Virus record (IMG/VR): IMGVR_UViG_3300010885_011884 | Location: 1-21,544 of that record | Source: a virus | Length of the DNA stretch: 21,544 nt | Direction: 5' to 3' (one strand) | Shown: positions 3,942-21,239 of the stretch, one piece after another | How the letters are laid out: each line of letters begins with the position of its first letter | Numbering within the stretch: position 1 is the stretch's first letter | The notes under the pieces: generated by a model | The model's database searches: none | What the model was told of the DNA's origin: nothing | The model's input: the letters and a program-made list of their open reading frames with translations, nothing else | Translations under genes and position numbers: made by a program

Positions 3942-4307
3942 TTATTCCTTGTGCTTGTCTAGGTAAGAATTGCCTATGTCATGATCTGATAGAGCATCTA
4001 GATTATTAAATTGCTTAGTGCTTGTGTATGGATTAAACGAAACTATTTGTCCTGTGTCGTCAACAAAATTATTAGGAACAATGGGTTGTTGTTTTATAGG
4101 TGTTATTGTTGGAGGAGGAAGACCGCCCTTTTCATCTTGAAAACCAGGCATTAAATCATCTAAAAAACCAGTTGCACCTGTTCCATGAAGCAAAGCAATT
4201 GCTGCTACTTTTTTTAATTTAGCTTTTTGCTCGTCAAGAAATCCTGGCCCAGCCAATTCTTGACCAAATTGACTAAGACCAGCACCAGCAAAAGGACTTG
4301 TAGCCAT
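3942..4307 (-). CDS. Small structural-module protein of unknown role
   Basis: The 121-aa product has a Gly/Phe/Leu-containing N terminus, a basic helical stretch (LDEQKAKLKKVAAIALLH, residues 24-41), a Pro-rich middle and an acidic C-terminal part ending DKHKE. I do not recognise a family. It sits among ejection-type genes and is presumably a virion or assembly partner of the proteins encoded on either side. The upstream stop and this gene's ribosome site are fused in TAAGGATTTACTATG, which suggests translational coupling. Confidence 0.7.
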   Translation of the reverse strand: MATSPFAGAGLSQFGQELAGPGFLDEQKAKLKKVAAIALLHGTGATGFLDDLMPGFQDEKGGLPPPTITPIKQQPIVPNNFVDDTGQIVSFNPYTSTKQFNNLDALSDHDIGNSYLDKHKE

Positions 4308-4316
4308 AGTAAATCC

Positions 4317-5039
4317 TTAAATCTTAAATCCGCTGCTCTTGCTAGAGCCAGTAGACGTACCACCTTGCGTACCAGCGTAGTTGGGGTTGGTAGATGCTTG
4401 AGGCGTACCAAACACAATAGAAGCATACTTGCTGTACAGGTCTTGTGGCGCTCCAGCGTATCCAATACGGGAAGCAGCGGCAGTATTTGCGGCATTCAAA
4501 CCTTGACCACCAATATTAGCCAATTGGTTAGCGGCAGCAGCTTTGTTAGCCTGAACCTGGGCTTGCGCTCCAGCAGCAGCAGTAGCCTGTCGTTGAGCAT
4601 TTAGACCGGCTAGATTGGTATCTGCCAAGGCCATACGAGCCGATCCTAGACCACCAGCACCACCGTACATGGCATTCTGTCCAGCTTGGCTTTCCCGAGC
4701 AGATTCACGTCCTGCTTGCAGTGCAGCATTGACTTGTCCTTTTTCGTAGTTGGGGTCAAACAAAGATTGAAGACCCTTTACACCGGACAACAAACTACCA
4801 GCCCCTACAGCACCTTGTAAAGCACCTGTACCGGCAGCTACATCAGACGCAGCATTAGCGGCATTGGTAACACCTCCAGCAGCATTGTTGTATACGTTCT
4901 TTGCACCAGTTACCGTATTTTGGTAAGCAGGAAGAAACGTATTCTTTAAAGCTTCATTTTGTATTTGAAGAGTTTCTTTTTGTTCAGGAGTCATCTGAAC
5001 AGTATTTGTCTGAGTACCAGACGATTTGCCCATTCCCAT
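4317..5039 (-). CDS. Putative DNA ejection / internal virion protein
   Basis: The 240-aa product is very rich in Ala, Gly, Gln and Asn. It starts with a polar segment and TPEQKETLQIQNEALKN, has a Gly/Ala central region, then GGLGSARMALAD and a long Ala/Gln helix (about 145-185), and ends in a Gly/Ser/Thr tail with YSKYASIVFGTPQ before it. A 'GGxGSxRxALA' turn followed by an Ala/Gln-rich helix and a 'Y...GTP' tail is a pattern I associate with small ejection proteins of P22-like and environmental podoviruses. The likely role is to leave the particle with the DNA and help it cross the envelope. A GAGGT ribosome site is correctly spaced before the first ATG; MGMG allows a start two residues later. 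Confidence 0.75.
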   Translation of the reverse strand: MGMGKSSGTQTNTVQMTPEQKETLQIQNEALKNTFLPAYQNTVTGAKNVYNNAAGGVTNAANAASDVAAGTGALQGAVGAGSLLSGVKGLQSLFDPNYEKGQVNAALQAGRESARESQAGQNAMYGGAGGLGSARMALADTNLAGLNAQRQATAAAGAQAQVQANKAAAANQLANIGGQGLNAANTAAASRIGYAGAPQDLYSKYASIVFGTPQASTNPNYAGTQGGTSTGSSKSSGFKI

Positions 5040-5044
5040 GATTA

Positions 5045-5371
5045 TTACCTCTTACCTTTGCTGGATGAACCAGAAGTACCGGCAGAACCTTTGCCGCTAG
5101 GTTGGGTTGAATTATCCCACATACCATTTTGTCCACCATTACCCTGAGTCATGTTTTGGTCAATGGTATTCGAATATGCGTTTGGCATACCCATTTGCGG
5201 TTGACCACTTTGACCTGGAAACGTTACCGCCCCTTGGGAGCCTTGCATCTGCTCTGGAGCTGCATATTCTTGAGAACCACCTTTGCCGCTAGGAGATGAT
5301 TGAGATGAAGCCACACCTTTTCCAGAGGATGAACTCTGAGGTGATTGAACTTGTGCCGATGGTGCGCCCAT
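5045..5371 (-). CDS. Ser/Gly/Gln-rich low-complexity protein
   Basis: The 108-aa product is almost entirely Ser, Gly, Gln, Pro and Asn, with few hydrophobic residues. The short element SGKG occurs at three places (near residues 16, 28 and 92), and the last residues are basic (SSSKGKR). Such a protein is unlikely to have a fixed fold. It may be a flexible virion component or a linker-type assembly factor delivered with the ejection proteins encoded downstream. The ribosome site GGAG overlaps the upstream TAA (GGAGTAAATCATG). Confidence 0.7.
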   Translation of the reverse strand: MGAPSAQVQSPQSSSSGKGVASSQSSPSGKGGSQEYAAPEQMQGSQGAVTFPGQSGQPQMGMPNAYSNTIDQNMTQGNGGQNGMWDNSTQPSGKGSAGTSGSSSKGKR

Positions 5372-5374
5372 GAT

Positions 5375-5794
5375 TTACTCCGGTTTGGAAGGCCAAATAA
5401 TATTAAAAGGGTCAGATTGCGTTGTTATATCACGCAATTCCTGACGATATGTTGCCCATGCTGCTTTGTTGCTTAAAACAACATCAGGCAATTGAGTCCA
5501 ATCTGATTCTGCAAGCAAAGTATTACGTTGGGCTTTTACTACTATCCATTGCGTTTGATCTGTCCTTGGATCAATCCATTGCTTTGTGTCATAGTTAAAA
5601 ACAGAATATGAATTTGGAGCCGGAGGAATATTAACAGGCAAATTATTTATTACATAAAATTCATTTCCAGGATAAATTCCTGAAACGTATTTTTCAATAG
5701 TGGGATCATATTGAGAATTTATCTTATCATCAGGACAAATAGTTACCCTTACAATTTGACCATTGCTTTGCAAATATATTGATATATCAGCCAT
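5375..5794 (-). CDS. Tail (fibre) assembly chaperone-like protein
   Basis: The 139-aa product has a mainly beta N-terminal half and a C-terminal domain (about residues 80-139) with R90NTLLAESDWTQLPD, then a helix WATYRQELRDI, and a closing WPSKP. This 'R..LL..SDWTQLPD...WA.YRQ.LRDI...WP..P' signature is that of the phage tail assembly chaperone family often found directly after fibre genes, whose members help fold or attach fibres. It follows the 785-aa tail-tip gene and overlaps it as TAATG. There is no recognisable ribosome site; the preceding bases are GAAACAAAAAAATA. Expression therefore probably depends on coupling to the upstream gene or on a frameshift at the A-run. Similar chaperone pairs in other phages are frameshifted, but not known to be so for this family. 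Confidence 0.8.
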   Translation of the reverse strand: MADISIYLQSNGQIVRVTICPDDKINSQYDPTIEKYVSGIYPGNEFYVINNLPVNIPPAPNSYSVFNYDTKQWIDPRTDQTQWIVVKAQRNTLLAESDWTQLPDVVLSNKAAWATYRQELRDITTQSDPFNIIWPSKPE

Positions 5795-8151
5795 TATTTT
5801 TTTGTTTCTAAAGTTGCAATGGTGCTAATTTTGTTATAACCGTTATACGAAGAAGGATAAGATGCTTTAAAAACCAAAGTATAAGAATTTGAACCAGACG
5901 GAGGATTGTCCATTATAGAAAATGTACACAAATCACTTCCTATACCTCCATAATAATCATATCCAACTCCAGCCCCACTTTTTGGAGTTTCAAAAAGAGT
6001 TGTACCATTTCTTTTTAATGAAACGACAAGCGCACTTGCTCCACGATCTCCATCGTTATTAATGATTTGAGAAGGTGGAACGTATGAGGTTGAAACTGTA
6101 ACAAGAGTTGGTGCACCTGTAGAAGTTACCGTTTGAGTTAAAACTGTAGTAAAAACAGGGTCATATCCACTACCTGAACTGCCTGCGGCATAAATAACAG
6201 TAGCTGCATAACTGGTTGTACCATTAGGAAGAGTTACTGCATTATTTCCAATCTTCAATGTTTCTACTTGTAAATCGCCAATCTTTGCCGTGGTAATTGT
6301 TGCATCAGCTATTGCAGCATTTGCAGCAGTAATACTATTTGCAGCCATGTTTGTAGCGGAAATAGTAGCTGCTGCAATTTGAGTTGCAGTAATAGTATTT
6401 GATGCAATGTTTGTTGCTGTTAAAGTATTAGCAGCAATCCTGTCGCCAGTAATAGTATTGGCAGAAATCTTATCACCAGTAATTGTGTTTTGAACAATTA
6501 AACTTCCGGTTATATAAGTAACAAACGTTGTCCAAGAAGTTATATACCTATAAACAATAGCATTGTTTTGTATGTTGTAGCTTAAAGTGCAAATGTCTCC
6601 AGCAACAGGAGTTCTTCCAATTAACGCTATTACTTCAGCATCAGTTGGTGGAGATCCATCATTTGCAGTTCTTGTAATAACGTAAGTAGCTGCTCCATTT
6701 CCACCGTTATAAGAAATTGCTCTAATGCTATTGCTTGTGTTAGTCCAATCCAACGTTGAAGTTGTAGTGGTAGCAGTTACTGATAAAGGATAAGTAATTG
6801 ACCACAAATAATTTCCAGAAGTGGTATTGCTAGGAGCCGATGTATACCATCCACTAGGCGCTGTATAAGCTCCTGTAGCCCATGTATAGGTAGATGTTGT
6901 AGTAGGTCTTGTTGGTGGTGTAGAAGAGCCTGTCCATTGATAAATGGTAGGAAAAGCAGACATTACACCATTTGCACCAGCTTGACCAGCAGGGCCGTTA
7001 TAGACAATCGGCATTACTATTGTCTTGCTACCAGGGCTTGATAAATTTGATCCGTTAACAGTCAATACTACCGTTACAGACGTAGCAGAAGAATTAGGAG
7101 TTATTACAACAGATGATGTTGTAGCAGATGTCGGAGTTGCACCAGTAATAGACCAGCTATAAGTAGGACTAGTAACGTTAGTCGTTATGGCTGTTAGCGT
7201 AGCAGTAGCTGGCGTAAATGCACCACCAGCATTTTGCGTAAAAGAAGAATATCCAGAAATATCAATTGTTGGGCCAGAATAACCCGTAGCACCAGGATCA
7301 GCAAATACAAACTGAACAGTTGCTACTGCTGCTTGCGTCACAACACCAAGATTGTTTTTATAACGTATAGGAACGCTTATGAAAGCAGGGTTTGCCGACA
7401 TTGCTGTTGGTGCAGGCCACAACGCATAATCACCGGCATCTGTTGGATTTCCAACCGTAATATTGGTGTAAGAAATATCCCCGTTACCCGTAGTTGAGGA
7501 ATTACCAATGCGCCAAGAATTGCTAACAAAACCAACGTTTGAATCAGTTTGAGCATCCGTAAAAGGAATAACAATGCCTTGTTGAATTGAATACAACGCA
7601 GCTTGTACCCCTGTAAAACTAGGAGTTAACGGCAATCCAGATCGAGGAACTTGTAATGTACTTGGAGTGAAATACGAGAAAAATACTTGTGCAATTACAG
7701 GAATATTTCCAGACGTAACAACATCCAAATCAATAGACGCACCTGGATCAACTAACCATCCTGTATCTGGAGCGTATTGTGAAACGGCAAACTGAATTTG
7801 TCTTCCACCAGTAGATACATAAAACAGAAATTTAGTTGTACCAAATCCACCTGTTACTTTATTCCAAATGTAATCAGTGTAATTAGATGATTCTGAAGAA
7901 TTGTCATTATTTCTAATTCCAAAATACTGACGATTTGTTGGTACGTTACTAAAGTTTACAGATCCGTCAAACGAATCTGCGTATTTAATAGCCATGTACT
8001 TGTACAAGTAACTAAGAATGTTTCCTGTTGGGCCTTTGACTTCACCCGTGTTAGGATCGCTAGTAACGCCTGTACTAAAGTTGCTCAATAGATAATTAAT
8101 CGCCTCAGATATTTCTGATTGCGAGGGATTACCATCAAGAGCATAAGGCAT
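5794..8151 (-). CDS. Large tail-tip or tail fibre protein
   Basis: The 785-aa product has a distinct N-terminal domain (1-285) that probably attaches it to the tail. An Ig/PKD-like beta domain follows (about 296-384), then a short collagen-like GPAGQAGANG (386-395), a beta domain of the type seen in central fibre proteins (about 398-478), a 10-residue-period stalk (about 553-640), and a C-terminal beta domain (650-785) that could be the receptor-binding knob. This order resembles the distal part of lambda J-type and other central fibre proteins, although the N terminus is different. It lies between the nozzle gene and a chaperone-like gene, as expected for a fibre. The ATG overlaps the upstream stop as TAATG, with GAGGA before it. 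Confidence 0.8.
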   Translation of the reverse strand: MPYALDGNPSQSEISEAINYLLSNFSTGVTSDPNTGEVKGPTGNILSYLYKYMAIKYADSFDGSVNFSNVPTNRQYFGIRNNDNSSESSNYTDYIWNKVTGGFGTTKFLFYVSTGGRQIQFAVSQYAPDTGWLVDPGASIDLDVVTSGNIPVIAQVFFSYFTPSTLQVPRSGLPLTPSFTGVQAALYSIQQGIVIPFTDAQTDSNVGFVSNSWRIGNSSTTGNGDISYTNITVGNPTDAGDYALWPAPTAMSANPAFISVPIRYKNNLGVVTQAAVATVQFVFADPGATGYSGPTIDISGYSSFTQNAGGAFTPATATLTAITTNVTSPTYSWSITGATPTSATTSSVVITPNSSATSVTVVLTVNGSNLSSPGSKTIVMPIVYNGPAGQAGANGVMSAFPTIYQWTGSSTPPTRPTTTSTYTWATGAYTAPSGWYTSAPSNTTSGNYLWSITYPLSVTATTTTSTLDWTNTSNSIRAISYNGGNGAATYVITRTANDGSPPTDAEVIALIGRTPVAGDICTLSYNIQNNAIVYRYITSWTTFVTYITGSLIVQNTITGDKISANTITGDRIAANTLTATNIASNTITATQIAAATISATNMAANSITAANAAIADATITTAKIGDLQVETLKIGNNAVTLPNGTTSYAATVIYAAGSSGSGYDPVFTTVLTQTVTSTGAPTLVTVSTSYVPPSQIINNDGDRGASALVVSLKRNGTTLFETPKSGAGVGYDYYGGIGSDLCTFSIMDNPPSGSNSYTLVFKASYPSSYNGYNKISTIATLETKK
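5797..5803 (-). promoter_or_regulatory. A_AAA_AAA slippery heptamer before a stop codon
   Basis: The last codons of the 785-aa gene read ACA AAA AAA TAA, so the transcript carries a run of seven A in the exact X_XXY_YYZ register for a -1 ribosomal frameshift. A -1 slip would read AUA and then AUG GCU, entering the frame of the downstream chaperone gene from its first codon. The heptamer sequence, its register and the fusion product are directly visible; that slippage happens is inference. Confidence 0.5.
6290..6486 (-). repeat. 30-bp coding repeat making a 10-residue stalk
   Basis: Residues about 553-620 of the 785-aa protein repeat every ten residues on the pattern NTITxxxIAA (NTITGDKISA, NTITGDRIAA, NTLTATNIAS, NTITATQIAA, ATISATNMAA, NSITAANAAI). 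Thr-Ile/Leu-Thr and Ile-Ala positions recur in phase, as in trimeric beta-helical or coiled stalks of phage fibres. The repeats differ at the DNA level, so the array is not a fresh duplication. Confidence 0.8.
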
Positions 8152-9764
8152 TAGAACGCATCCTCAGTAACAGTTGCTTGCCAGTTAATGGCTGTTAGAT
8201 TCCATGAATCTGTAGCATCATTTGATTGTACTTTAACCGAGACAGTTCTTACGTTGTTTTGCTGGCTAGTAACCCAAGGGTTATCTGTTACAACAGCAAC
8301 AACCCCTGTTTGACCATAAGTAGCTGGTTGGGCAGTAGAGTTAGAGCCACCGGTAGTAATGTTTACATTACCTGTACCGGCAATCTCTGGAAGCAACCGA
8401 TGTATATACAGTTTGGCACTGTATGGAACAGCACCTTTTTCCGTTTGCAACGTAACATTATTGCGCTCAAATAGAGCAGGAATTGCTACGCCATTAAACG
8501 AATTTCCGACACCTGTTTGGATAAGTTGTGAACTAGCAGTACCACCCTTGGCGTATGTAACAGTCCTAGAAGCGTACTTAAAAGCACCGCTAACAAGCTT
8601 TGGAGCCTCACAAGCACTACAGGCATTAGCTACGTCTCTAGGAGCATTCCAGATGCTTAGATCGTATCTCCAAGAGATCATTTTGTTGCACCAACCGGTA
8701 GACGTTAGATCAGGGAAGTAAACTTCAATCTGGTTCTTTTGCGTATTGTTGACCATGAAAACACGATCAGAATATGTTGGGCTCAAATTGTTAAAAAAGT
8801 AATCACGGACTTTTTGATTGCCAAGAGGAAAGAAATCTGATCCGTTGAACACCCAAATGTCCCTGCTATCAATGCCGTAAACATTGGAGTCGGTGTTAGA
8901 CCAGCAATTGTTGTTTATTAACCCACGACCCTGGTTAAACAGTCGAATGCCAAAGACCGGTGCAGTGCTGTTTTGATAAGCAATAGGAGAGAAAACAACC
9001 GTATCCCAATAAGAACAAACGTAGAAGTTTCCACCTAAAAAGAAACCGTCAACAATAGGGCCACGAACGGGTATTTCCTGCTCGTTAGCAATGTTGGTAA
9101 GGGTAGGAGTCCAAGAAGCAGGAACGCCTGTATTTGCAAAGCTTTGTGACCAGCGAACTGTAGTTGGGTAGTTCACAGTAAGACCAGTGCTGTAGTCCTT
9201 TGTAATGTTTCCAGCAATCAAGATGTTTCCAACGTTTGGAGAACAATAGTTGCGTACAAATTCAGCACGAGTTGCCGTTACTCCAACATCGTAATTCCAG
9301 ACATAGTTATCAGGAGCAGCACCATAAAGATAGATTTCTGTTGCTGTTGGCAGGAAGTACATTGGCGCTCTAAGAGCATCATTGATAAAAAACACTTCAC
9401 CAACCCAAGAGGTTGTAATGTTTATATCGTCTGAATAACCTGACAGTGCAACGTTTGGATTCCCCCCCACACCAGGTGTTATGTTTGTGATACCGGAAGA
9501 GGTAACCATGTACCACTTACCCTCACGGGTAGCGGCAATGTAAACCCAAGCATTGTTGTTTCTAAACCCACCATCCATGAATACTACATTGCCAGGAATA
9601 GCAGAAAGAATAGACTGTTCACCCGAAACCTTCTTAATCCCACGAACATCAGCTTCAACGTTTGTTCCGCTGTTGTATTCGTTTGGGCCAAGAGCATTAG
9701 ACGGCACATCAGGTGTAAAACTCATGTTTACAAATGGAGTGCGAAGTCTAGTGTAATCGGTCAT
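8151..9764 (-). CDS. Tail nozzle-like protein (gp10 / stabilisation type)
   Basis: The 537-aa product is beta-rich throughout and starts MTDYTRLRTPFVNMSF. Near the N terminus it has a GTNVEADVRGIKKVSG segment typical of the tail proteins that close the short tail. Repeated blade-like stretches such as AWVYIAATREGKWYMVT and VYGIDSRDIWVFNGSDF follow, and then W-R-Y-D-L-S-I-W-N at about residue 365 with CSAC beside it (about 380). This pattern fits beta-propeller nozzle proteins such as the P22 gp10 group. I chose ATG 9764 because it overlaps the upstream TGA (ATGA); a longer form would begin with TTG at 9776. The ribosome site is weak. Assignment is by pattern and context. Confidence 0.75.
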   Translation of the reverse strand: MTDYTRLRTPFVNMSFTPDVPSNALGPNEYNSGTNVEADVRGIKKVSGEQSILSAIPGNVVFMDGGFRNNNAWVYIAATREGKWYMVTSSGITNITPGVGGNPNVALSGYSDDINITTSWVGEVFFINDALRAPMYFLPTATEIYLYGAAPDNYVWNYDVGVTATRAEFVRNYCSPNVGNILIAGNITKDYSTGLTVNYPTTVRWSQSFANTGVPASWTPTLTNIANEQEIPVRGPIVDGFFLGGNFYVCSYWDTVVFSPIAYQNSTAPVFGIRLFNQGRGLINNNCWSNTDSNVYGIDSRDIWVFNGSDFFPLGNQKVRDYFFNNLSPTYSDRVFMVNNTQKNQIEVYFPDLTSTGWCNKMISWRYDLSIWNAPRDVANACSACEAPKLVSGAFKYASRTVTYAKGGTASSQLIQTGVGNSFNGVAIPALFERNNVTLQTEKGAVPYSAKLYIHRLLPEIAGTGNVNITTGGSNSTAQPATYGQTGVVAVVTDNPWVTSQQNNVRTVSVKVQSNDATDSWNLTAINWQATVTEDAF

Positions 9765-10117
9765 ATTGCTACCCAAGAAATGGTGCTTTCATCCCAAACG
9801 TAACGATTGTCATCGCTAGGGTATTGTACCGGTGGATACCACTGGCAAGTCTGCTCATCAAGAATCCAGCTTGGATATATTTTGGGTGGGACAAACGCAT
9901 CACGAATTGAATCGTAAAAATATCCAATTCCAGCGTAGTTTTTACGAAACGGTGTACCGCCTAATGTGTGTACGCCACCAACTGTGTTGTAGCTAGTCTT
10001 TTTCCAAATCTTACCCGTGTTTTCTTGGTAGATTGCTTCGCCATCATAAGGCTCGTCAACTCCAACAATTACTTGGACAACAATATTGTTTTCATCAAGT
10101 TGTGCGAAATGTGCCAT
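9761..10117 (-). CDS. Small virion-module protein common in aquatic phages
   Basis: The 118-aa product starts MAHFAQLDENNIVVQVIVG, has a central W-K-K-T-S-Y-N, FRKNYAGIGYFYDSIRDAF and PPKIYPSWILDE, and ends with WDESTISW. I recognise this as a family frequent in cyanophages, pelagiphages and viral metagenomes, usually beside fibre or tail genes; no biochemical function is known to me. The conserved Trp, Tyr and Pro residues suggest a compact beta fold. A GGAG ribosome site lies 8 bases before the ATG. It may decorate the tail or assist fibre attachment. Confidence 0.8.
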   Translation of the reverse strand: MAHFAQLDENNIVVQVIVGVDEPYDGEAIYQENTGKIWKKTSYNTVGGVHTLGGTPFRKNYAGIGYFYDSIRDAFVPPKIYPSWILDEQTCQWYPPVQYPSDDNRYVWDESTISWVAI

Positions 10118-10121
10118 TTAT

Positions 10122-10260
10122 TTAACTCCATCGAATAGTACCTGTGCCAGATGTAAATGTATAGACTTTGTAACCAGAGCGTGATGCTGTATCTGCTGCT
10201 GGAACATTAGAACCTGTGGTGGTTACGCCATTAACAACAAACCCAGCAGAAAAAGTATTA
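10122..10260 (-). repeat. Module-end repeat, copy 1 of 4
   Basis: Encodes the closing block of the glycine module, with VVNGVTTTGSNVP and YKVYTFTSGTGTIRWS. It is clearly alike at the DNA level to the blocks near 11508-11645, 12464-12600 and 13350-13490; the closest is the copy at 13350-13490, for example GTTACGCC(A/G)TTAACAAC on the plus strand in both. Confidence 0.8.
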
Positions 10261-11024
10261 ATACTTGGATATGTACTAGGGTATGCAAGAACAACTATGC
10301 CAGAACCGCCAGCACCACCTGCTGGATGGACTGAATTACTTTGATCTCCGTCTCCGCCACCACCACCGCCTGTATTTGCAGTTCCTGCTGTTCCAGCGGT
10401 ATTGCTATTACCACCCGCACCACCACCGCCTGTTCCACCAAGACCTCTTGATCCAGTAGATCCGCCTCCTCCACCGCCCGAATAGTAGGTTGATGTTCCT
10501 GTTATAGATAATGCTGAACCAATACCACCAGTTTGATTTGTTGCTGCCGCACCAGCGCCACCGCCGCCGCCACCCCAAGGAGAAGCGCTTCCAGTAGCAC
10601 CAGCATTACCTTGACCAGAAGTTCCAGAACCACCAGTACCTACTCTAAGTCCACCACCACCACCGCCTGATCCTCCAGAAACTCCATTGTTTGGTGATCC
10701 AGTATTACCAGCACCGCCACCACCACCACCAACAGCGGTTAATGTTGAAAATACAGAATTTGAACCACTATCTCCACCTCTAGCAGAATTTGCTGGCGTT
10801 GTTGGAGCTCCTGCTCCAACGGTTACTGTATACACAGTTGTACCTAAAAAAACACTAGTTTGTGTTAATACTCCACCAGCACCACCGCCGCCTCCATCTT
10901 GTCCAGTACCTCCAGCACCACCCCCTGCTACAACTAAATATTCACTTGTAATAGTAAAATAAGCCGCAGATAAAATTCCAAATCCTCTAGCAGCTTTAGA
11001 CCCAAACCTAGAAATAAAAGGCAT
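10122..11024 (-). CDS. Glycine-rich adhesin-like protein, one module
   Basis: The 300-aa product has a short N-terminal segment (MPFISRFGSKAARGFGIL, then AAYFTITS) that differs from the two related genes upstream, then the strand EYLVVAGGG that opens the glycine module. The module carries landmarks shared with the others: YTVTVGAG, SVFSTLTAVGGG, TSGQGNAG, SITGTSTYYSGGGGGG, NTGGGGGG and GSGIVVLAYPS, with runs of up to six glycines between them. It closes with VVNGVTTTGSNVP and YKVYTFTSGTGTIRWS. The glycine-run pattern resembles adhesins such as phage S16 gp38, in which polyglycine-II helices form a sandwich that displays receptor loops. A host-binding role is inferred. The upstream stop and ribosome site are fused (TAAGGATTCTTTATG). 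Confidence 0.8.
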   Translation of the reverse strand: MPFISRFGSKAARGFGILSAAYFTITSEYLVVAGGGAGGTGQDGGGGGAGGVLTQTSVFLGTTVYTVTVGAGAPTTPANSARGGDSGSNSVFSTLTAVGGGGGGAGNTGSPNNGVSGGSGGGGGGLRVGTGGSGTSGQGNAGATGSASPWGGGGGGAGAAATNQTGGIGSALSITGTSTYYSGGGGGGSTGSRGLGGTGGGGAGGNSNTAGTAGTANTGGGGGGDGDQSNSVHPAGGAGGSGIVVLAYPSTYPSINTFSAGFVVNGVTTTGSNVPAADTASRSGYKVYTFTSGTGTIRWS

Positions 11025-11033
11025 AAAGAATCC

Positions 11034-11480
11034 TTATGCAAATTTAGTTTGCGAGCCTAAAACCGTAAATGCTGCACTACCTGTTTTTACAATAGTAAAA
11101 GAGTAAACATCTACAGAGCTTGCATTTCCAGCAGAGGGGGCAGTACCACCTTGCCATTTAGGAGTAACTGAAGTCCCATCAATTGTCATAGCAGATTGAT
11201 AGTAAGCTGTTGTACCTTGGGTAACTAAAAACGCAATAGTCAAACTTTGACCGGTTGACATTAAAGTATTCAAGCTAATCGAACTACTACCACGCACATT
11301 AAGCGTCCAGTTTGCAGAAGCATTGGTTGTGTAATACAAAACACTTTGAGTGCTTGCATCGTAATTGATTGTTCCTGTGGCAGCAGTAGCCGAAATGGTG
11401 TTAACCTCTTGAGTATTAAGTGATGCCCCAGTGCTGCCAATACTGTTAGCTAAGAATGAAAGATTACGCGAAATGCTCAT
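11034..11480 (-). CDS. Small fibre-associated protein common in aquatic phages
   Basis: The 148-aa product starts MSISRNLSFLANSIGSTG and contains NASANWTLNVRG, LMSTGQSLTIAFLVTQG, TAYYQSAMTIDGTSV, TPKWQGGTAPSAGNASSVDVY and the ending SFTIVKTGSAAFTVLGSQTKFA. This order of blocks is a well-represented family in cyanophage, pelagiphage and metagenomic viral genomes, where it accompanies fibre genes; I know of no proven function. It is probably a beta-sandwich virion protein. I chose the ATG at 11480, which has GGGG six bases before it; a longer reading would start with TTG at 11492. It sits between two glycine-rich adhesin genes. Confidence 0.8.
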   Translation of the reverse strand: MSISRNLSFLANSIGSTGASLNTQEVNTISATAATGTINYDASTQSVLYYTTNASANWTLNVRGSSSISLNTLMSTGQSLTIAFLVTQGTTAYYQSAMTIDGTSVTPKWQGGTAPSAGNASSVDVYSFTIVKTGSAAFTVLGSQTKFA

Positions 11481-11507
11481 AATTAACCCCAAAAAATTGT
11501 AAATTTC

Positions 11508-11645
11508 TTACCATTGAATTGTACCTGTGCCAGACGTAAACGAATAAACTTTGTAGCCTGATCGCGAAACAATGTCCGATGCTGGAACATTGGAGCCTGT
11601 TGTTGTTACACCGTTAACAATTAAACCTGATGAAAATGAAGAAAT
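11508..11645 (-). repeat. Module-end repeat, copy 2 of 4
   Basis: Encodes IVNGVTTTGSNVPASD and YKVYSFTSGTGTIQW, the closing block of the 317-aa protein. It is the most diverged of the four copies in its final codons, and the protein ends one residue after the Trp-equivalent position. Confidence 0.75.
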
Positions 11646-12461
11646 ATCTGGGTAAGTATTTAAGTAAGCGATGATTACTACTCCAGAACCTCCAGCAAAA
11701 CCACCATTATTTGCGTTTCTACCAATCCCACCATTTCCCGTATTGGCGGCACCAGCGCCGCCAGAAGTAAGACCTGATCCCCCGCCTGCCGCATAAGTTA
11801 CTGATGTTCCTGTAATAGAAACGGCAAGTCCTACTCCACCAGCCCCATAAGTAGCATTTGTTGAAGTTGCTCCACCGCCTCCACCGCCGACCCCTGAACC
11901 GCTAGCTACAGAACTTTGTCCGGAATTTCCATAGCCAGTAGCGCCTCCAGAATTTCCTTGGTTATAACCGCCACCACTGCCAGCACCACTTGTATAGCTA
12001 GAGCCGCCACCGCCGCCACTACCGCCACTTAACCCTGCTCCCGCTGGATATGCGCCACCACCACCGCCAGCATTTGCAGTAATAGTATCAAATACGGAAG
12101 AAATTCCGTAAGACCCCGCAGTGGCTGATCCAGAACTTGTACCTGCATTACCTCCGGCACCAATAGTTACTGTATATGATGTCGATGCCGCAGTAGAGCG
12201 TCCTGTTTGATAACAAAGACCGCCAGCGCCTCCGCCTCCACCAGACCAACCTCCACCACCATAAGTAGTATTTGATCCACCAGCACCGCCACCGCCAGCA
12301 ACTACTAGTACCTCAATAACAGGAGAAAATAAAATTTTAGGCCAACTTGTAGCAGTAAGAGCCTGCATTGTTTCATTAGAGCGCCAGATACCTGGAGCAG
12401 AACTCGTACTTGTAGTTGCTTCTGAAACAGATAACTTAGAACCTTTGTATCTAGTAGACAT
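11508..12461 (-). CDS. Glycine-rich adhesin-like protein, one module
   Basis: The 317-aa product begins with an anchor-like region (MSTRYKGS, then STSSAPGIWRSNETMQAL and SWP, residues 1-40) that matches the start of the 634-aa protein. The strand EVLVVAGGG opens one glycine module with YTVTIGAGG, SVFDTITANAGGGGG, SITGTSVTYAAGGGSG and GSGVVIIAY, and the common closing block follows. In family terms this is a phage glycine-rich fibre or tip protein; binding to a host surface is inferred from the likeness to polyglycine-II adhesins. There is no evident ribosome site before the ATG, and only two bases separate it from the upstream stop, so translation probably depends on coupling. Confidence 0.8.
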   Translation of the reverse strand: MSTRYKGSKLSVSEATTSTSSAPGIWRSNETMQALTATSWPKILFSPVIEVLVVAGGGGAGGSNTTYGGGGWSGGGGGAGGLCYQTGRSTAASTSYTVTIGAGGNAGTSSGSATAGSYGISSVFDTITANAGGGGGAYPAGAGLSGGSGGGGGSSYTSGAGSGGGYNQGNSGGATGYGNSGQSSVASGSGVGGGGGGATSTNATYGAGGVGLAVSITGTSVTYAAGGGSGLTSGGAGAANTGNGGIGRNANNGGFAGGSGVVIIAYLNTYPDISSFSSGLIVNGVTTTGSNVPASDIVSRSGYKVYSFTSGTGTIQW

Positions 12462-12463
12462 AA

Positions 12464-12600
12464 TTAAAAAGTTATTGTGCCAGTTCCGGCTGTAAATTTA
12501 TAAACTTTATTACCAGCGGAAGATGTTGTATCCGAAGCAGGAACATTAGACCCTGTTGTGGTTACACCGTTAACAACTAAACCGCTAGAGAATGAAACAA
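12464..12600 (-). repeat. Module-end repeat, copy 3 of 4
   Basis: Closing block of the second module of the 634-aa protein. It keeps VVNGVTTTGSNVPASD but has SSAGNKVYKF where the other copies have SR(S/A)GYKVY(T/S)F, and it ends at GTITF without the Trp. Confidence 0.75.
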
Positions 12601-14368
12601 TGTCTGTGTAAGTATTTGGATACGCAATAATTACAATACCAGAGCCACCAGCACCACCGCCTTTTTGACTGCTACCTGTAGCATTTGGTGTCCCTGCTCC
12701 ACCGCCTCCGCCACCTGTATTTACACTACCTTGACCACCGATAGTATTTTGGCCGCCAGTTCCGCCACCACCATTACCACCGGCTCCTCCAACTGCTGTA
12801 ATATCACCACCGCCGCCGCCGCCGCCGCCTGCGTAAAACGTTAATGTTCCTGATATAGCTGTTGAAACACCTGCACCACCTGCACCTGCATTAACCCCTA
12901 CAGCATTAGCCCCTACTGCGGAATAACCACCACCACCACCTGCAGAGTATGGGGATGCTGTAATCGCTGTACCACCACGCATACCTTGACCTGCAGGACT
13001 AGTGCTAGCGGCTCCATAGGTAAAACTATAAGAGCCACCACCGCCACTACCACCAGGTTGGCCAGCTAATCCACTTCCTGTAAGGTTTCCGCCTCTACCA
13101 CCGCCGGTAGAAGTTATGCTGCTAAAAACGGAATCGCTACCAGATGTATATGCAGCGTCAGCACCAGCAGGTTGACCTGTACCACCACCCCCAACCGTAA
13201 CTGTATAGTTTGTTGCTGTTGCAACAGCAAACCCATCAATAGCTCTATATCCTCCTGCACCACCACCACCACCAGCCCATCCACCGCCTCCGCCTCCACC
13301 AGCAACTACTAAATAGTTAACGGTTGAAGGCGCAGTTGGTGTTGGAGCAGACCATTTTATTGTTCCTGTACCAGCAGTAAACGTATAAACTTTGTAACCG
13401 GCTCGTGATGTTGTATCTGGAGAAGGAACATTAGAACCCGTGGTAGTTACGCCGTTAACAACCAAACCAGCAGAAAAAGTTACAATGCTAATGCTTGCAC
13501 TTGGGTAAGCAATAATGACAATACCTGAGCCACCAGCGCCTCCTGTGGTTGCTGATGATGCGGCAGTTGATCCACCACCACCACCGCCAGTGTTTACTGT
13601 TCCTGCTACACCAGTATAAGTAGTTATTGGCCCACCACCTCCACCACCACCAGCGCCACCAGCACCAGGAGCGCGTCCTGCTCCAGCACTACCAGCACCA
13701 TACGTTCCACCACCGCCACCACCGGCGTAAGTTGTAGATGTTCCAGAAATACTAGATGCAGTTCCTGCGCCACCATCTCCACCTATAGGGCTAACGTTAT
13801 AAGGACTGGAGTTGCCATTTCCACCAACTGCACTTGCACCTCCGCCACCGCCTCCAGTGTCAGAAGTTCCATTTCCTGCTCCTCCTGCATTACCTTGTCC
13901 AGATGTACCTGCTGCACCACTTAAATTTGCAACCGCACCGCCACCACCAGAACCACCAGTTGTAGCAATTCCAGAAGCAGCACCAGCACCAGCACCACCA
14001 CCAGTAGAAGTTATAGATGAAAAAACAGAATTTAATCCATTAGAACCAGCAGCAGTACTACTAGCTCCCCCACTACCAACAGTAACTGTGTAAATTGTTG
14101 TTGAATCAACAGAAAATCCTGTAGCTGTTTTAAATCCGCCAGCGCCTCCGCCTCCACCGCCAGCAAAACTTGCAGTAGAACCACCACCACCACCACCACC
14201 AGCAACTACTAAATACTCAACAGTTGGCGGCGCTGAGTTAAGTGAAGGCCATATTGATGCGTATAAAGATTGCATTACTTCATTAAGACGCCATATCCCT
14301 TTAGCAGACGACGTGCTAATTGTCGCCGCTGTAGACGACATAATTGAACCTTTATACCGAATAGACAT
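12464..14368 (-). CDS. Glycine-rich adhesin-like protein with two fused modules
   Basis: The 634-aa product has the same anchor-like start as the 317-aa protein (MSIRYKGS, STSSAKGIWRLNEVMQSL, IWPS) and two complete glycine modules in tandem, about residues 50-340 and 350-634. Both open with YLVVAGGGGGGG, contain SVFSSITSTGGG, and close with the VVNGVTTTGSNVP block; the first ends in KWSAPTPTAPST, which links to the second. The second has an eight-glycine run encoded at 12806-12829. The double module is either an in-gene duplication or a fusion of two adhesin genes. The likely role is receptor binding at a fibre tip, by analogy with polyglycine-II adhesins. The ATG overlaps the upstream stop (TAATG) and no ribosome site is seen. 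Confidence 0.8.
   Translation of the reverse strand: MSIRYKGSIMSSTAATISTSSAKGIWRLNEVMQSLYASIWPSLNSAPPTVEYLVVAGGGGGGGSTASFAGGGGGGAGGFKTATGFSVDSTTIYTVTVGSGGASSTAAGSNGLNSVFSSITSTGGGAGAGAASGIATTGGSGGGGAVANLSGAAGTSGQGNAGGAGNGTSDTGGGGGGASAVGGNGNSSPYNVSPIGGDGGAGTASSISGTSTTYAGGGGGGTYGAGSAGAGRAPGAGGAGGGGGGGPITTYTGVAGTVNTGGGGGGSTAASSATTGGAGGSGIVIIAYPSASISIVTFSAGLVVNGVTTTGSNVPSPDTTSRAGYKVYTFTAGTGTIKWSAPTPTAPSTVNYLVVAGGGGGGGWAGGGGGAGGYRAIDGFAVATATNYTVTVGGGGTGQPAGADAAYTSGSDSVFSSITSTGGGRGGNLTGSGLAGQPGGSGGGGSYSFTYGAASTSPAGQGMRGGTAITASPYSAGGGGGYSAVGANAVGVNAGAGGAGVSTAISGTLTFYAGGGGGGGGDITAVGGAGGNGGGGTGGQNTIGGQGSVNTGGGGGGAGTPNATGSSQKGGGAGGSGIVIIAYPNTYTDIVSFSSGLVVNGVTTTGSNVPASDTTSSAGNKVYKFTAGTGTITF
12806..12829 (-). 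repeat. (GGN)8 run encoding eight glycines
   Basis: Six GGC codons followed by two GGT codons give a pure GGN tract, the longest of many in the glycine-rich genes. It sits in the loop after the conserved strand with FYAG in the second module of the 634-aa protein. In-frame length change by slippage is possible. Confidence 0.8.
13350..13490 (-). repeat. Module-end repeat, copy 4 of 4
   Basis: Internal closing block of the first module in the 634-aa protein (VVNGVTTTGSNVPSPD, YKVYTFTAGTGTIKWS). Unlike the other copies it is not at a protein end; it runs into the linker that starts the second module, which marks the fusion or duplication joint. Confidence 0.8.
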
Positions 14369-14739
14369 TAGGTAATAGCTTCGTAAGATGCGGTTAATTC
14401 AATTGCGGAAGCTGTACCAACAGTCACAACAATAGATTGCGCTTCGCCAAGGTAAAAAGCAGTGCTTTTATCAGCAATAACAATTGAAGAGTTTACAGGT
14501 ACAGGCACTTGGTAAACAAGACGATAATTTGTTCCTGCACCAGCCGCAGCGCTATTAATTGCTACAGTTACTGTTGCAACAGATGCAGTTGCGTTAGCTG
14601 CAACAATATTGTCAATTTTGTTTACCGTACTAGCAGCCGGCGTAAGCGCAGTCCAAGTAGTTGCAGATGTTGTACTTGGGATTAAATAACTAGTGTTGCC
14701 GTAAATTGATGTTACGTTAACTATGTTGGGATTTGCCAT
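14368..14739 (-). CDS. Small structural protein common in aquatic phages
   Basis: The 123-aa product starts MANPNIVNVTSIYGNTSYL, has KIDNIVAANATASVATVTVAI, a tyrosine segment YRLVYQVPVPVNSSIVIADK, then FYLGEAQSIVVTVG and the ending IELTASYEAIT. This is a familiar all-beta family of cyanophages and other environmental phages, found next to tail fibre genes. Its exact role is not known to me; a trimeric collar, sleeve or adaptor on fibres would fit its size and beta fold. Stop and ribosome site of the junction are fused (TAAGGAACAAAAATG). The gene overlaps the next one by one base. Confidence 0.8.
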   Translation of the reverse strand: MANPNIVNVTSIYGNTSYLIPSTTSATTWTALTPAASTVNKIDNIVAANATASVATVTVAINSAAAGAGTNYRLVYQVPVPVNSSIVIADKSTAFYLGEAQSIVVTVGTASAIELTASYEAIT

Positions 14740-14748
14740 TTTTGTTCC

Positions 14749-17700
14749 TTAATATCCAAAAATCATTGCCATTGCAATACTTTTACCAGTTGTTACACCA
14801 GCAGTTGAAAATGAAGTAATATTTATTGCTTCAACAATGTCACCAGTATTTGTTCCAACGCCTAAAGTAAATGAAGTTCCATTGGTGGCAGTGTAATCTG
14901 ATGTTGCCAAAAATGTTCCGTTTACATAAACTTGTAATTGTCCTACTGTGTAAGATGATGTAAATGCTGTTTGATTTAATGTTGCAGTAAAACTAGTTCT
15001 TGTAAATGCTCCGGAACTAAACACCGCTGCTTCAACAATTTCACCAGCAAGAGTTGGAACGCTTAAAGTAAAATCTGTTCCAGAAGTTGCTGTGTAATCT
15101 GACGTTGCAAGCAAAATACCATTAACAAATATTTGAAGGTATCCAACTGTATACGTCAAAGTAAAGTTTGTTTGACCGGCTGTAGCTGTAAATGAAGTAC
15201 GGGCATAAGTTCCTGTTGAACCACCACCACCACTACCGTTAGCAGCAGCTGTAATACGACCATAAGCATCAACAGTAATGTTTGCACTTGTATAACTAGC
15301 AGCGGTAACTGCCGTTGTTGCTAATGCAATCGTACCAGTAGTCGTAATCGTACCACCAGTCAGTCCCGTACCAGCAGTAATAGACGTTACTGTTCCTGAT
15401 CCAGAAACCGTTGACCAAGTTGGTGCTGCTGATCCATTTGATGTAAGAACTTGGCCAGAAGTACCGGCACTTGAAAAAGCGTAAGCAGTTCCAGTACCGT
15501 AAGAAATTCCACCAGCGGTAGGTGTTGCAGTAGAGTTTGTACCACCACGGCTAATAGCTATACCAGTTCCGTTCCATGTTGCCGATGTAATAGAACCAGG
15601 ATAATCAAACGTGTTTGTTGACCAAGATACATTAGAAGGTGCAAAGTTATGCAAATCCCATGATCCGGCAGCAGTTGCATTGCTTAACAAAATAACTTCA
15701 ACAAAACCACCAGACTGAACTGTTGCAATTGTAGTGCTTGAGTTATTTTTAACAACAATTGTTCCGCTAGATTGGTTATTGTTAAACGTGTAATTTATGC
15801 CATTAGCCAATGTTGTTGCATCAGGCAATTGATACGTTTGACCACCTGAACCAGTAACAACGTAATTAGGAGCAGAACTTGCCGTTAATACTGTTGTAGT
15901 ACCAGCAGCAGCAACGCTTGAAAATGATTCGCTAATTGAGTTAACTGTTATGTTTGCATTTGAATCTCGCAAAACAATTGAGTTAGCACCAGAAGAAACT
16001 GTAACTCCACTTCCACCATTTGCTACTGCAACAACTCCTGTTACGTTGGCTGCATTGCCGCTGATATTGCCACTTATTTGCGAACCAGGCAAACTCAAAG
16101 AACTTAAGGTGGTTAACGTGCTATTGGATGTGGCAGTAATGTTTGCAGCCGTGCCAGTAGTGTTTTGATTCCACGTTGGAACCGTTCCTGACAATTGAGA
16201 ATAGGGTAAACTCAATGCGCTTAAAGTAGTAAGCGTTGAATTGCTAGTAGCAGTAATGTTTGATGCTGTTCCTGTTGTACTTTGATTCAACGTTGGAATA
16301 TCAGTAGCAACAATGGCCCTAAAAGTAGGAACACCAGCAAAACCATTAGGAGCAGCTAAAACAAAATTAGACGTTTTAGAAGCGTATGGGTTTAAAGTGT
16401 CTCCATAAGCAGCGGCTAAACTTATTGCAGGAGTTGCACCACCACTAGAAACAACAGGAGATGTACCTGTTACAGAAGTAACTGTACCTGAACCGGTTGC
16501 AGAAATTGTAATTGACCCTGAACCATTAGTAATGGTAATTCCCGTGCCAGCAGTCAATGTGCTTTTTGCAAGCGTACTTCCAGTAGAGTTGCCAATTAAT
16601 AATTGACCATCTGTATAAGTAGTTTGACCAGTTCCTCCATTAGCAACCGCTACTGTTCCAGTTACATTGGCTGCATTGCCAGAAATATTGCCAGAAACTT
16701 GAGATCCTGGAAGGCTTAATGAGCTTAATGTAGTAAGCGTTGAATTACTGGTAGCTGTAATGTTTGCAGCAGTACCTGTAGTGTTCTGGTTTAAAGTAGG
16801 TATATCTGCGGAAAGAAGAGTTCTAAACGTTGGAACACCAGCAACACCATTGGGAGCAATAAGTACAGCATTTGCTGTTTGACTTGCAAAGTTTGAAGCC
16901 GTAACCGAAAGAGTACCACCTAGTGTTAGGTTACCTGTTGTAGTTACCGTACCAGTTAAAGTTAAACCGCTTACTGTGCCGGTTCCAGCAACACTAGTAA
17001 CTGTTCCTGTATTGTTTGTGTATCCGCTTGGATTAGATGCAGCATAAGCTCCAAGAGAAGTTAATGCAGCAGAGGCACTTGTTGCACCCGTACCACCGTT
17101 AGCAATAGGTAACGCTGTCCCAGAATACGAAATATCAAGAGAACCGCTAGTAGTAATAGGGCTACCAGCTATTGACAAAAATGCTGGAACTGTAGCTGCA
17201 ACTGAAGTAACTGTACCGCTACCCGCACCAATTGTTATTGGAAGTACGTTGTAGTACCAATCAGAAGCAGGTTGAGCGCTTATTGTTGTTTGCGCTACAC
17301 AAGTAAAAATACCTTTTGAATTTGCGGGTATTGTGGTTAAAGCATTTAAATTATTGTAAGTAGCAACGGTAACTGTTGTAGACGATTTATTAATGATTGT
17401 CCAAGTTTGACCTTTATATGTTGAAGCAGTTGAAGATAAATAAATTGTCTGTGAAATTGCTCCAGTTACATATTGAATAACATTAGAAAATTGAGTAAGT
17501 TGTACAGCAGTTATTGATGATGCTATTAAAGAATAAGTATTTCTTTCAATACCAGAAAGCGCTGTGTTACCAGGAAAACCAGATACTGAAATATCCCAAG
17601 TATTAGTTCCCAAGTAAGTTGCACGAGCTATTGAACCAATTAAAACATATTGAAGAAAAGTAGCGCCAGAATTTTTTAAGCTAATTAAACTAGATGTTGA

Positions 17701-18594
17701 GTTATTTTCAATTAAAAAATTGTATCCAATAGGCAAGCCATAAGAAGAGTCAGGTAAATTTATAGTTGTTGCAGAAGTACTTGAACCCGAAACATACTGA
17801 TATGTAGCACTAGAACCAGTAAGAGTAGTGCTTCCACCAGCAGTTATTGAATCAAAACCAAGCTGTTGAATTCCTGCTCCAGCCAAACTGCTTGAACCTG
17901 TGCCGCCATTTGCTATTGGCAATACTCCTGTTACAGAGCTTGTTAAAGAAACACCTGTAATAGAACCGCCAAGCGTCAAGCTTCCTGTTGACGTTACTGT
18001 TCCACTAAGAGTTAATCCATTAACTGTACCTGTTCCAGCAACACTAGTAACTCCAGTATTGGCTACGGAAATAGATCCTGCGCCATTGGTGATTGATATT
18101 CCAGTACCGGCAGTTAACGTTGCTTTTGACAGCGTATTACCTGTAGTGTTACCAATTAACAGCTCTCCATTCAAATAGCTTGTTTGACCAGAGCCACCAT
18201 TGGCAACTGGCAAAGCTGTTCCAGAATACGATAGTGCAAGTGCTCCACTTGATGTTATTGGAGAATTTGCTACTGATAAAAAAGCTGGAGCAGTTAATCC
18301 TACCGAAGTAACAGTACCAACTCCACTTGAAGTAGAGTTAATAGTTTGATTAGGCCAAGTTCCTGTAATAGTTACATTGGTTCCAGCTACCAATGCCGGT
18401 GTTGTTGTACCCGTACCGCCTTGGGCAACAGCAATAGTTCCAGAAATCATGGAACTAGTAATGTTTGGTGGGCCACCTGTAGCAACAATTGATCCAGTTG
18501 TTGATGGTAACGTAAGAGTTACTGTCGTTGCTGAATCTGGTGCAACTATTTCTGTTGCCCCACCAAGAGCCGCTTGTAAAACAATTTTACCCAT
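14749..18594 (-). CDS. Long repeat-built tail fibre protein
   Basis: The 1281-aa product starts MGKIVLQAALGGATEIV, a usual N terminus of phage fibres in environmental genomes. The shaft is built from repeated Gly/Thr/Ser units: GTVTSV, LLIGN.TG.TL.K.TLTAGTG and (V/I)ANGG(T/S)G elements that recur about seven times. Three larger beta domains, likely knobs, interrupt it at about residues 248-335, 355-453 and 893-985 (the last with GQTYQLPDATTL and AAGSWDLHNF). The C-terminal part has two tandem 67-residue domains and ends GKSIAMAMIFGY, a cap I know from other aquatic phage fibres. It likely forms a trimeric fibre that binds the host. I chose ATG 18594, which has AGGA five bases before it; the longer reading needs TTG at 18612 and overlaps the upstream stop. 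Confidence 0.88.
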   Translation of the reverse strand: MGKIVLQAALGGATEIVAPDSATTVTLTLPSTTGSIVATGGPPNITSSMISGTIAVAQGGTGTTTPALVAGTNVTITGTWPNQTINSTSSGVGTVTSVGLTAPAFLSVANSPITSSGALALSYSGTALPVANGGSGQTSYLNGELLIGNTTGNTLSKATLTAGTGISITNGAGSISVANTGVTSVAGTGTVNGLTLSGTVTSTGSLTLGGSITGVSLTSSVTGVLPIANGGTGSSSLAGAGIQQLGFDSITAGGSTTLTGSSATYQYVSGSSTSATTINLPDSSYGLPIGYNFLIENNSTSSLISLKNSGATFLQYVLIGSIARATYLGTNTWDISVSGFPGNTALSGIERNTYSLIASSITAVQLTQFSNVIQYVTGAISQTIYLSSTASTYKGQTWTIINKSSTTVTVATYNNLNALTTIPANSKGIFTCVAQTTISAQPASDWYYNVLPITIGAGSGTVTSVAATVPAFLSIAGSPITTSGSLDISYSGTALPIANGGTGATSASAALTSLGAYAASNPSGYTNNTGTVTSVAGTGTVSGLTLTGTVTTTGNLTLGGTLSVTASNFASQTANAVLIAPNGVAGVPTFRTLLSADIPTLNQNTTGTAANITATSNSTLTTLSSLSLPGSQVSGNISGNAANVTGTVAVANGGTGQTTYTDGQLLIGNSTGSTLAKSTLTAGTGITITNGSGSITISATGSGTVTSVTGTSPVVSSGGATPAISLAAAYGDTLNPYASKTSNFVLAAPNGFAGVPTFRAIVATDIPTLNQSTTGTASNITATSNSTLTTLSALSLPYSQLSGTVPTWNQNTTGTAANITATSNSTLTTLSSLSLPGSQISGNISGNAANVTGVVAVANGGSGVTVSSGANSIVLRDSNANITVNSISESFSSVAAAGTTTVLTASSAPNYVVTGSGGQTYQLPDATTLANGINYTFNNNQSSGTIVVKNNSSTTIATVQSGGFVEVILLSNATAAGSWDLHNFAPSNVSWSTNTFDYPGSITSATWNGTGIAISRGGTNSTATPTAGGISYGTGTAYAFSSAGTSGQVLTSNGSAAPTWSTVSGSGTVTSITAGTGLTGGTITTTGTIALATTAVTAASYTSANITVDAYGRITAAANGSGGGGSTGTYARTSFTATAGQTNFTLTYTVGYLQIFVNGILLATSDYTATSGTDFTLSVPTLAGEIVEAAVFSSGAFTRTSFTATLNQTAFTSSYTVGQLQVYVNGTFLATSDYTATNGTSFTLGVGTNTGDIVEAINITSFSTAGVTTGKSIAMAMIFGY
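14815..15201 (-). repeat. Tandem 201-bp duplication at the fibre C terminus
   Basis: Two copies of a 67-residue domain lie head to tail, starting RTSFTAT at 15201 and at 15000. Both carry QT.F...YTVG.LQ(I/V).VNG..LATSDYTAT.GT.FTL and end in EA. Matching plus-strand sites GCTTCAACAAT(T/G)TCACCAG are exactly 201 bases apart (15029 and 14828). The conserved VNG and DYTA elements mark a domain seen in many phage fibres. Confidence 0.85.
16016..16800 (-). repeat. Three related shaft repeats within the long fibre gene
   Basis: Three copies of a unit with NITATSNSTLTTLS(S/A)LSLP lie near 16016-16173, 16186-16300 and 16633-16795. The first and third also share SGNISGNAANVTG and the (V/I)AVANGG(T/S)G hinge. 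The middle copy is shortened (SLPYSQLSGTVPTW). The copies are related at the DNA level as well, so they probably arose by recombination within the gene. Confidence 0.8.
17015..17218 (-). repeat. Shaft block shared with the neighbouring fibre gene
   Basis: Encodes GTVTSVAATVPAFLSIAGSP, then SYSGTALPIANGGTGAT and ASAALTSLGAYAASNPSGYT. The same order occurs in the 359-aa fibre at about 18768-18980, and a shorter relative lies at 18175-18320. Similarity is obvious at both protein and DNA level. Confidence 0.8.
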
Positions 18595-18601
18595 AATTTT
18601 C

Positions 18602-19681
18602 CTACGCAGCAATAATTAGATTTGAAACCGTTAACGTTCCGGTGCTTGGGTTAAATTTAAACTTTGAAGAACTTACATATTCTGCCGTTACGTTTCCACT
18701 TGTTGTATTTGAAAACAATGGGTAGCGAACAGCGTTTGTAGTTGTATCGTCAGTAATAGTTGCATAATTTGTTGACGTATATCCATTTGGATTTGAAGCT
18801 GGATATGCTCCCAATGATGTCAACGCTGCGCTTGCAGTGGTAGCACCTGTACCACCATTTGCTATTGGTAAAGCAGTGCCAGAATAACTAATTGCTATTG
18901 TTCCAGAAGACGTTATTGGACTTCCAGTAACAGACAAAAAGGAAGGTACAGTTGTTGCTACAGATGTTACAGTTCCTTGAGGATTTGCGGCAGTGCTAAT
19001 TCCAGTAACACGACCATAAGTGTCAATAGTTACTACAGGTATTAAAGTAGCTGATCCACTAGTACCGGCAGTAGCTATTCCACTTGCTAAATCAACAACA
19101 GGAGTTGTTCCGCCTGTACTTGTAATACGCCCAGCTGTTCCTGTTACGGAATTAACATAAGTTCCCGCTGGTTGTTTAGCATTAAACGTTGTCCAATCTG
19201 CGGAACTCAACAATCCTCTATTAGTTGCAGAAGCAGTAGGAAGGTTAAGTGTAATTACTGGTGTAGTTGTTGGATTTGCTACTGTTGACGAAACGTCTGT
19301 TCCAGAAGTTCCAAGAGTCAAAGCCGAAACATTAAAAACAGTTCCAGTACCAGAAGGAACTACAAATTGTCCTGGTGTAGACCAAGTAAACGATTGGTTT
19401 GATTTTGAATTTACAAGAGTAATTGAAACCCAAACTTTATTTGTTGGGCTTATTGGAGGGTAATTTGACCAACCTGTTGGAGGAGTTCCAACGTTTGTTG
19501 TAAAGTTCCATGATCCACCAGTTGGTGCTGTTAATGCCGTTGCCGATTCTTGAAATACAAACCACTCAAAATACGTTCCACCAAAAACTGTATTGTTTCC
19601 GTACAAACCAACGGATTCTGAACCTGATTGTGGAGCAACAGTTCCTGTAGAAGTACTGCCGTAAAGACCACCTGTAGCCAT
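18602..19681 (-). CDS. Short tail fibre or fibre-base protein
   Basis: The 359-aa product has an N-terminal domain of about 110 residues (MATGGLYGSTSTGTVAP, GGTYFEWFVFQ, GGSWNFTTN, KVWVSITLVNS) that I recognise from other environmental phage fibres, then a repeat shaft. In it are LSSADWTTFNAKQP, VTGTAGRITSTGGTTPVVDLA, DTYGRVTG and one LPIANGGTGAT hinge, and it ends KFKFNPSTGTLTVSNLIIAA. Tyr-Phe-Glu-Trp aromatic residues in the N-terminal domain may form the attachment surface. It may be the proximal fibre segment to which the 1281-aa fibre attaches, or an alternative fibre. Stop and ribosome site are fused at the junction (TAAGGACTAATTATG). Confidence 0.82.
   Translation of the reverse strand: MATGGLYGSTSTGTVAPQSGSESVGLYGNNTVFGGTYFEWFVFQESATALTAPTGGSWNFTTNVGTPPTGWSNYPPISPTNKVWVSITLVNSKSNQSFTWSTPGQFVVPSGTGTVFNVSALTLGTSGTDVSSTVANPTTTPVITLNLPTASATNRGLLSSADWTTFNAKQPAGTYVNSVTGTAGRITSTGGTTPVVDLASGIATAGTSGSATLIPVVTIDTYGRVTGISTAANPQGTVTSVATTVPSFLSVTGSPITSSGTIAISYSGTALPIANGGTGATTASAALTSLGAYPASNPNGYTSTNYATITDDTTTNAVRYPLFSNTTSGNVTAEYVSSSKFKFNPSTGTLTVSNLIIAA
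18768..18980 (-). repeat. Shaft block in the short fibre, matching 17015-17218
   Basis: Encodes GTVTSVATTVPSFLSVTGSP, SYSGTALPIANGGTGAT and TASAALTSLGAYPASNPNGY near the end of the 359-aa fibre. The long shared run between two adjacent genes is a natural substrate for homologous exchange of fibre segments. Confidence 0.8.
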
Positions 19682-19690
19682 AATTAGTCC

Positions 19691-20674: not shown

Positions 20675-20683
20675 AGTGTTTCC

Positions 20684-21190: not shown

Positions 21191-21196
21191 ACTTTT

Positions 21197-21200
21197 CTCC
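21197..21200 (-). promoter_or_regulatory. GGAG ribosome site deciding the 168-aa start
   Basis: GGAG on the transcript lies six bases before ATG 21190. The competing ATG at 21202 overlaps the same sequence (ATGGAG), so ribosomes starting there would cover the site. Confidence 0.6.
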
Positions 21201-21211
21201 ATGACTTTCCA

Positions 21212-21236: not shown

Positions 21237-21239
21237 CAG

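Follow-up and report, generated by a model that had tools for sequence, protein, structure and literature searches.

The window analysed here, a 21,544-nt tailed-phage genome fragment with its virion genes on the minus strand, probably contains, within the tail gene region of a freshwater short-tailed phage, a receptor-binding cassette consisting of an adaptor, swappable tips of the PF21722 family and a helper protein, g118. Three module genes lie within positions 10122-14368, all on the minus strand, and their products of 300, 317 and 634 aa comprise four related modules. The 634-aa protein (12464-14368) is composed of an N-terminal anchor followed by modules C1 (13352-14218, residues 51-339) and C2 (12467-13318, residues 351-634), and the 317-aa protein (11508-12461) of an anchor and module B (approximately 11511-12314). 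An anchor of about 48 aa is common to these two proteins, whereas the 300-aa protein (10122-11024) carries its own short N-terminus ahead of module A (approximately 10125-10943). The first-pass annotation had described the three genes as adjacent; they do occupy the same stretch and strand, but the 317- and 300-aa genes are separated by a gene for a 152-aa protein that is unrelated to the modules (11034-11492, minus strand; phrog_5906, annotated as unknown function). Homologues of this protein adjoin g118 and the array at two loci (L012/L013) and form part of larger proteins at two others (L084, L074).

The array is flanked by further genes in the same orientation. Immediately before the first module gene comes g123, which encodes a jelly-roll protein of 123 aa (14368-14739, minus strand), and upstream of the array a 1287-aa fibre-like protein (14749-18612, minus strand; phrog_31660, tail fiber). 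Directly downstream of the array is g118 (9761-10117, minus strand), encoding 118 aa and assigned to phrog_7759, also annotated as unknown function. The conserved flank on this side is the gene for a 541-aa tail nozzle-like protein (8151-9776, minus strand), which is similar to tail nozzles of known structure (E about 8e-8), shares 24% identity with virion proteins of PaP3-type Pseudomonas phages and served as bait for the collection of relatives.

The presence of four copies of one module, proposed initially from the sequence, is confirmed by end-to-end alignment, shuffle scores and Pfam matches. Glycine makes up approximately one third of the module residues, and the resemblance might therefore be a composition artefact of glycine-rich sequence. 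However, identity between the four window modules is 56-63% end to end and still 40-47% once Gly/Gly pairs are dropped, and their local alignment scores lie 24-34 SD above those of composition-preserving shuffles, so composition alone does not account for the similarity. PF21722 (Gly_rich_2) gave four separate matches of 66-74 bits, all well above the curated cut-off of 24.3 bits. In addition, the landmarks occur in order, and a confident AF2 model finds specific structural matches. We consider an artefact refuted on these grounds, its residual probability being negligible. The ordered landmarks themselves stand in part: GSG[IV]V and NGVTTTGSNVP recur in all four modules, but several others are degenerate (VLVVAGGG, YTVTIG and SITGTSVTYAAGGGSG in module B, YSGGGGGG in module A and AISGT in C2). 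All four modules are members of PF21722, a domain that is already known from proteins of phages and algal viruses and is widespread in phages. Compared with PF21722 at large, the window is distinguished by four copies per cassette, by anchors and tails that are conserved, and by its link to a partner gene. A sequence search of the PDB with the modules returned no significant relatives, and tblastn of the module proteins against named phages gave no matches, probably because low-complexity filtering masks the modules.

The structural comparison was based on an AF2 monomer prediction of the 317-aa protein from a 90-sequence alignment (pLDDT 86, pTM 0.84), in which a short helix at residues 28-38 precedes the first strand of the module core. 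The best structure match of this model is the Pam3 fibre (7YPX; Z 13.1, 2.7 Å over 168 residues), closely followed by the Bxb1 tail-tip protein (9D93 chain Qb; Z 12.8, 165 residues). The glycine-rich domains of ALK/LTK match at Z 5.2-5.7, and other rows do not exceed 3.0. A search of BFVD returned many glycine-rich domain-containing proteins from uncultured phages, cyanophages, a pelagiphage and algal viruses. In Pam3 gp24, the matching domain is a receptor-recognising tip that has a TNF-like core and whose glycine motifs are conserved, the distal end being hypervariable (PMC9608196). The match to the Pam3 tip and the Bxb1 tail tip means that the predicted role of the modules as putative tip adhesins is well supported, in agreement with the initial proposal of glycine-rich, loop-displaying tips.

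The window modules and Pam3 gp24 belong to the same fold class, with a TNF-like core and glycine-rich loops. In contrast to the window, with its short anchors, several tandem modules and phrog_7759 (compared here as a monomer model), the single fibre protein of Pam3 has a helical stem and is served by gp25, a Tfa-like fibre chaperone (PMC9608196). Bxb1 represents another phage type with another mounting, and the similarity to ALK/LTK is a weak one of general architecture, for which we do not claim homology, since these animal receptor kinases have another role. The first-pass annotation had instead chosen S16 gp38 as the reference. This comparison holds insofar as gp38 also carries glycine-rich motifs with hypervariable segments between them at the fibre tip (PMC6851490). 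However, gp38 is a polyglycine sandwich built on a beta-helix (PMC6851490) that caps gp37 through an alpha-helical domain, and Pam3 gp24, along with Bxb1 and ALK/LTK, is the better reference. S16 gp38 was not among the matches of either structure search with the 317-aa model, which is no proof of its absence. Polyglycine-rich or brush domains are also described for siphoviral tail hubs in work cited in PMC13243795.

The distribution of sequence variation fits a surface with displayed loops. Over the 90 sequences, mean entropy was 1.59 bits in strands and 2.22 bits at other loop positions, compared with 0.24 bits at conserved glycines, the last value being circular as this class was picked by low entropy. 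Variable columns cluster beyond all 5000 shuffles, which is also true of the non-glycine positions alone, and they are likewise clustered among the four window modules (runs test p ~0.001, ungapped columns). Differences between modules are concentrated rather than even, as anticipated, with variability sitting between the conserved glycine runs and the strands. The modules thereby share with Pam3 gp24 conserved glycine motifs that are separated by hypervariable segments.

Four copies had been regarded as unusual, a view contradicted by other phages, which carry one to about ten. Loci gathered by scanning viral contigs with the 49-aa C-terminal module tail hold one to six modules within the available stretch, about ten PF21722 matches occur on one 32-kb contig, and six tandem module genes lie within 8 kb of a 171-kb contig. 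The cultured Synechococcus phage Bellamy carries four modules in the form of two two-module proteins.

A role of the array in tip exchange, in contrast, is borne out by relatives that were collected through the 541-aa nozzle-like gene, independently of the modules. One of them, L005, matches window positions 15221-21544 with 97.3% and positions 2023-10319 with 95.6% identity. Between these near-identical flanks, it has two other module genes and lacks the 152-aa gene. The exchanged tract takes in g123, where DNA identity is approximately 78%, and reaches into the end of the fibre-like gene, whose C-terminal end borders the tract at the identity edge at 15221; on the opposite side, it stops within the tail of module A or immediately beyond. 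A recombination edge inside module A at 10319 was rejected, as the base-level alignment shows high identity from the stop codon of the 300-aa gene and approximately 80% in the tail. Two C-terminal repeats of about 50 aa in the 1287-aa protein (14798-15221) are absent in L005, and both fibre-like proteins share the final peptide.

Cores also move within the array. The core of window module C1 shares 89% identity across 208 aa with module 2 of another relative, L006, whereas its tail is nearer to the first than to the second L006 module (83 vs 68%), and the tail of L006 module 2 is nearer to window C2 (82%). As the C1 core matches L006 module 2 while the tails follow position, cores change position within a constant frame. 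L009 has the same anchor, attached to a domain that appears LamG-like by eye, and the closest named relative, MW202484 (L164, 5371-7479), has an annotated endo-N-acetylneuraminidase at the array site; the named record nearest to the window comes from an uncultured podovirus of Manatee Spring. At the sequence level, replacement of the module set and alternative binding domains correspond to the pattern of a receptor-binding locus. A diversity-generating retroelement was rejected as a source of variation: the search for a reverse transcriptase (RVT_1) in 14 related records was negative; several of these are fragments, as is the window. Homologous exchange is therefore the likely route of module swapping.

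Upstream of the array, g123 directly precedes the first module gene in 37 loci. Its AF2 model (pLDDT 88) gives jelly-roll matches and resembles a phage cement protein (Z 10.0), viral turrets and nucleoplasmin, while a sequence search of the PDB found no significant relatives. Some members of the g123 family match PHROGs annotated as tail fiber protein, and at L057 a g123-related domain is fused to glycine-rich proteins as their N-terminal part (E 2e-5 and 4e-4). We regard g123 as the likely, putative adaptor for the module proteins. At L057 (4818-8771), the glycine-rich proteins belong to another subtype and are encoded as a tandem of three, each starting with a jelly-roll-like domain, and the first two match the g123 profile; g118 was not found at this locus.

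The association of g118 with the modules is close. Among 36 complete intervals retrieved via the nozzle-like gene, g118 is present in 8/8 module-bearing and 0/28 module-free ones (p 3e-8, kinship ignored), the latter including close relatives such as L009. It adjoins a module gene in 47 of the 53 non-redundant module loci with room downstream. Searching in the other direction, we assessed 76 loci among the best 80 of at least 599 g118 matches; in this set, a module gene is the immediate upstream neighbour in 61 and lies no more than 4 kb away in 75. We also examined 13 phages with g118 that are named or have complete genomes, cyanophages, pelagiphages and a roseophage among them; all have a module gene at most 4 kb upstream, which directly adjoins g118 in 10. 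None of these samples is phylogenetically independent, but the 76 loci and the 13 phages span distant phages, and one g118 copy accompanies arrays of very different module number.

Comparison of g118 with the family of the tail-fibre assembly protein g139 (hhalign, probability 21%, 25 columns) revealed no clear homology, and a sequence search of the PDB gave no significant match. Without clear g139 homology, a chaperone role rests on position and association, from which we propose that g118 is the modules' putative dedicated chaperone or cap. The same evidence could be read differently, with g118 as a virion component that acts structurally, as tip or linker, and is neither chaperone nor detachable cap, given that it is nearly always found beside module genes and shows no clear homology to g139. 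We consider this reading the less plausible one, though a serious candidate: a single copy serves arrays with widely differing module counts, and a position just 3' of a fibre gene is typical of fibre chaperones, which, like Pam3 gp25, are usually encoded just downstream of the fibre gene. Extending the chaperone or cap reading beyond the window, we see an evenly balanced case for phrog_7759 being a near-obligate partner of the PF21722 domain, as chaperone or detachable cap, such that adaptor, interchangeable cores and partner would form a general cassette in which one helper serves many tips.

Some loci deviate from this arrangement. At L171, L173, L203, L206, L217, L228, L244 and L159, a single gene of about 200 aa lies between the adhesin and g118; in L159 (3397-4017) it is annotated as a 2OG-Fe(II) oxygenase, and the others are similar by eye. 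Several of the g118-seeded loci in which no module gene is the immediate neighbour have this arrangement. Such an oxygenase-like protein might modify the adhesin. In L110 (710-1480) and L112 (3575-4345), g118 is absent and the same 256-aa gene (MNSVLIAGCSFVG...) directly follows the modules, perhaps as an alternative partner or enzyme.

Two other readings concern where, and in what number, the modules are displayed. Given the matches of the g123 model to a phage cement protein and to viral turrets noted above, the modules could be mounted on the capsid via g123, as head fibres or turrets that bind host surfaces or environmental glycans loosely, rather than at the tail tip. This is unlikely in our view, since jelly rolls match many unrelated proteins, nucleoplasmin among them, and the array sits between fibre-like genes and the nozzle-like gene; moreover, the top fold matches are tail-tip proteins, and modules also terminate long fibre-like proteins, as in L012 and L116. 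The documented exchange of cores and sets would also be expected if only one or two copies reached the virion and the rest served as a silent recombination stock. We judge this improbable to a similar degree, because every gene is intact and they lie close together in one orientation, because a single protein combines two of the modules, and because distant phages retain multi-module arrays. Display of all four modules at the tail is thus the reading that we prefer.

For the tail-tip cassette, we envisage that (i) the g123 adaptor and the short anchors would attach the modules to the tail; (ii) each module would form a TNF-like beta core, with the conserved glycine runs building a bundle that displays the variable turns; (iii) the modules would act as host-contacting tips; (iv) g118 would help the glycine bundle to fold, or cap it transiently; and (v) conserved anchors, tails and linkers would stay constant around the variable cores, which recombination adds, removes, fuses and exchanges. 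Such recombination of cores would give otherwise near-identical phages new sets of tips.

The glycine-rich domain and its likely role are already known. A search of open-access literature found no account of the recurring cassette of three parts, of cores swapped in nature or of the near-obligate tie to phrog_7759, and a 2026 paper (PMC13243795) regarded it as an interesting open question how widely phages carry polyglycine-rich domains. Our analysis places multi-copy polyglycine-rich arrays in many environmental phages and shows natural tip swapping between near-identical ones. It also provides a strong genomic lead to the role of phrog_7759, a common unannotated family that could be a marker gene for these adhesins, which often escape BLAST owing to masking of their glycine runs. 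If the proposed partnership is true, it spans distant phages of marine and freshwater bacteria.
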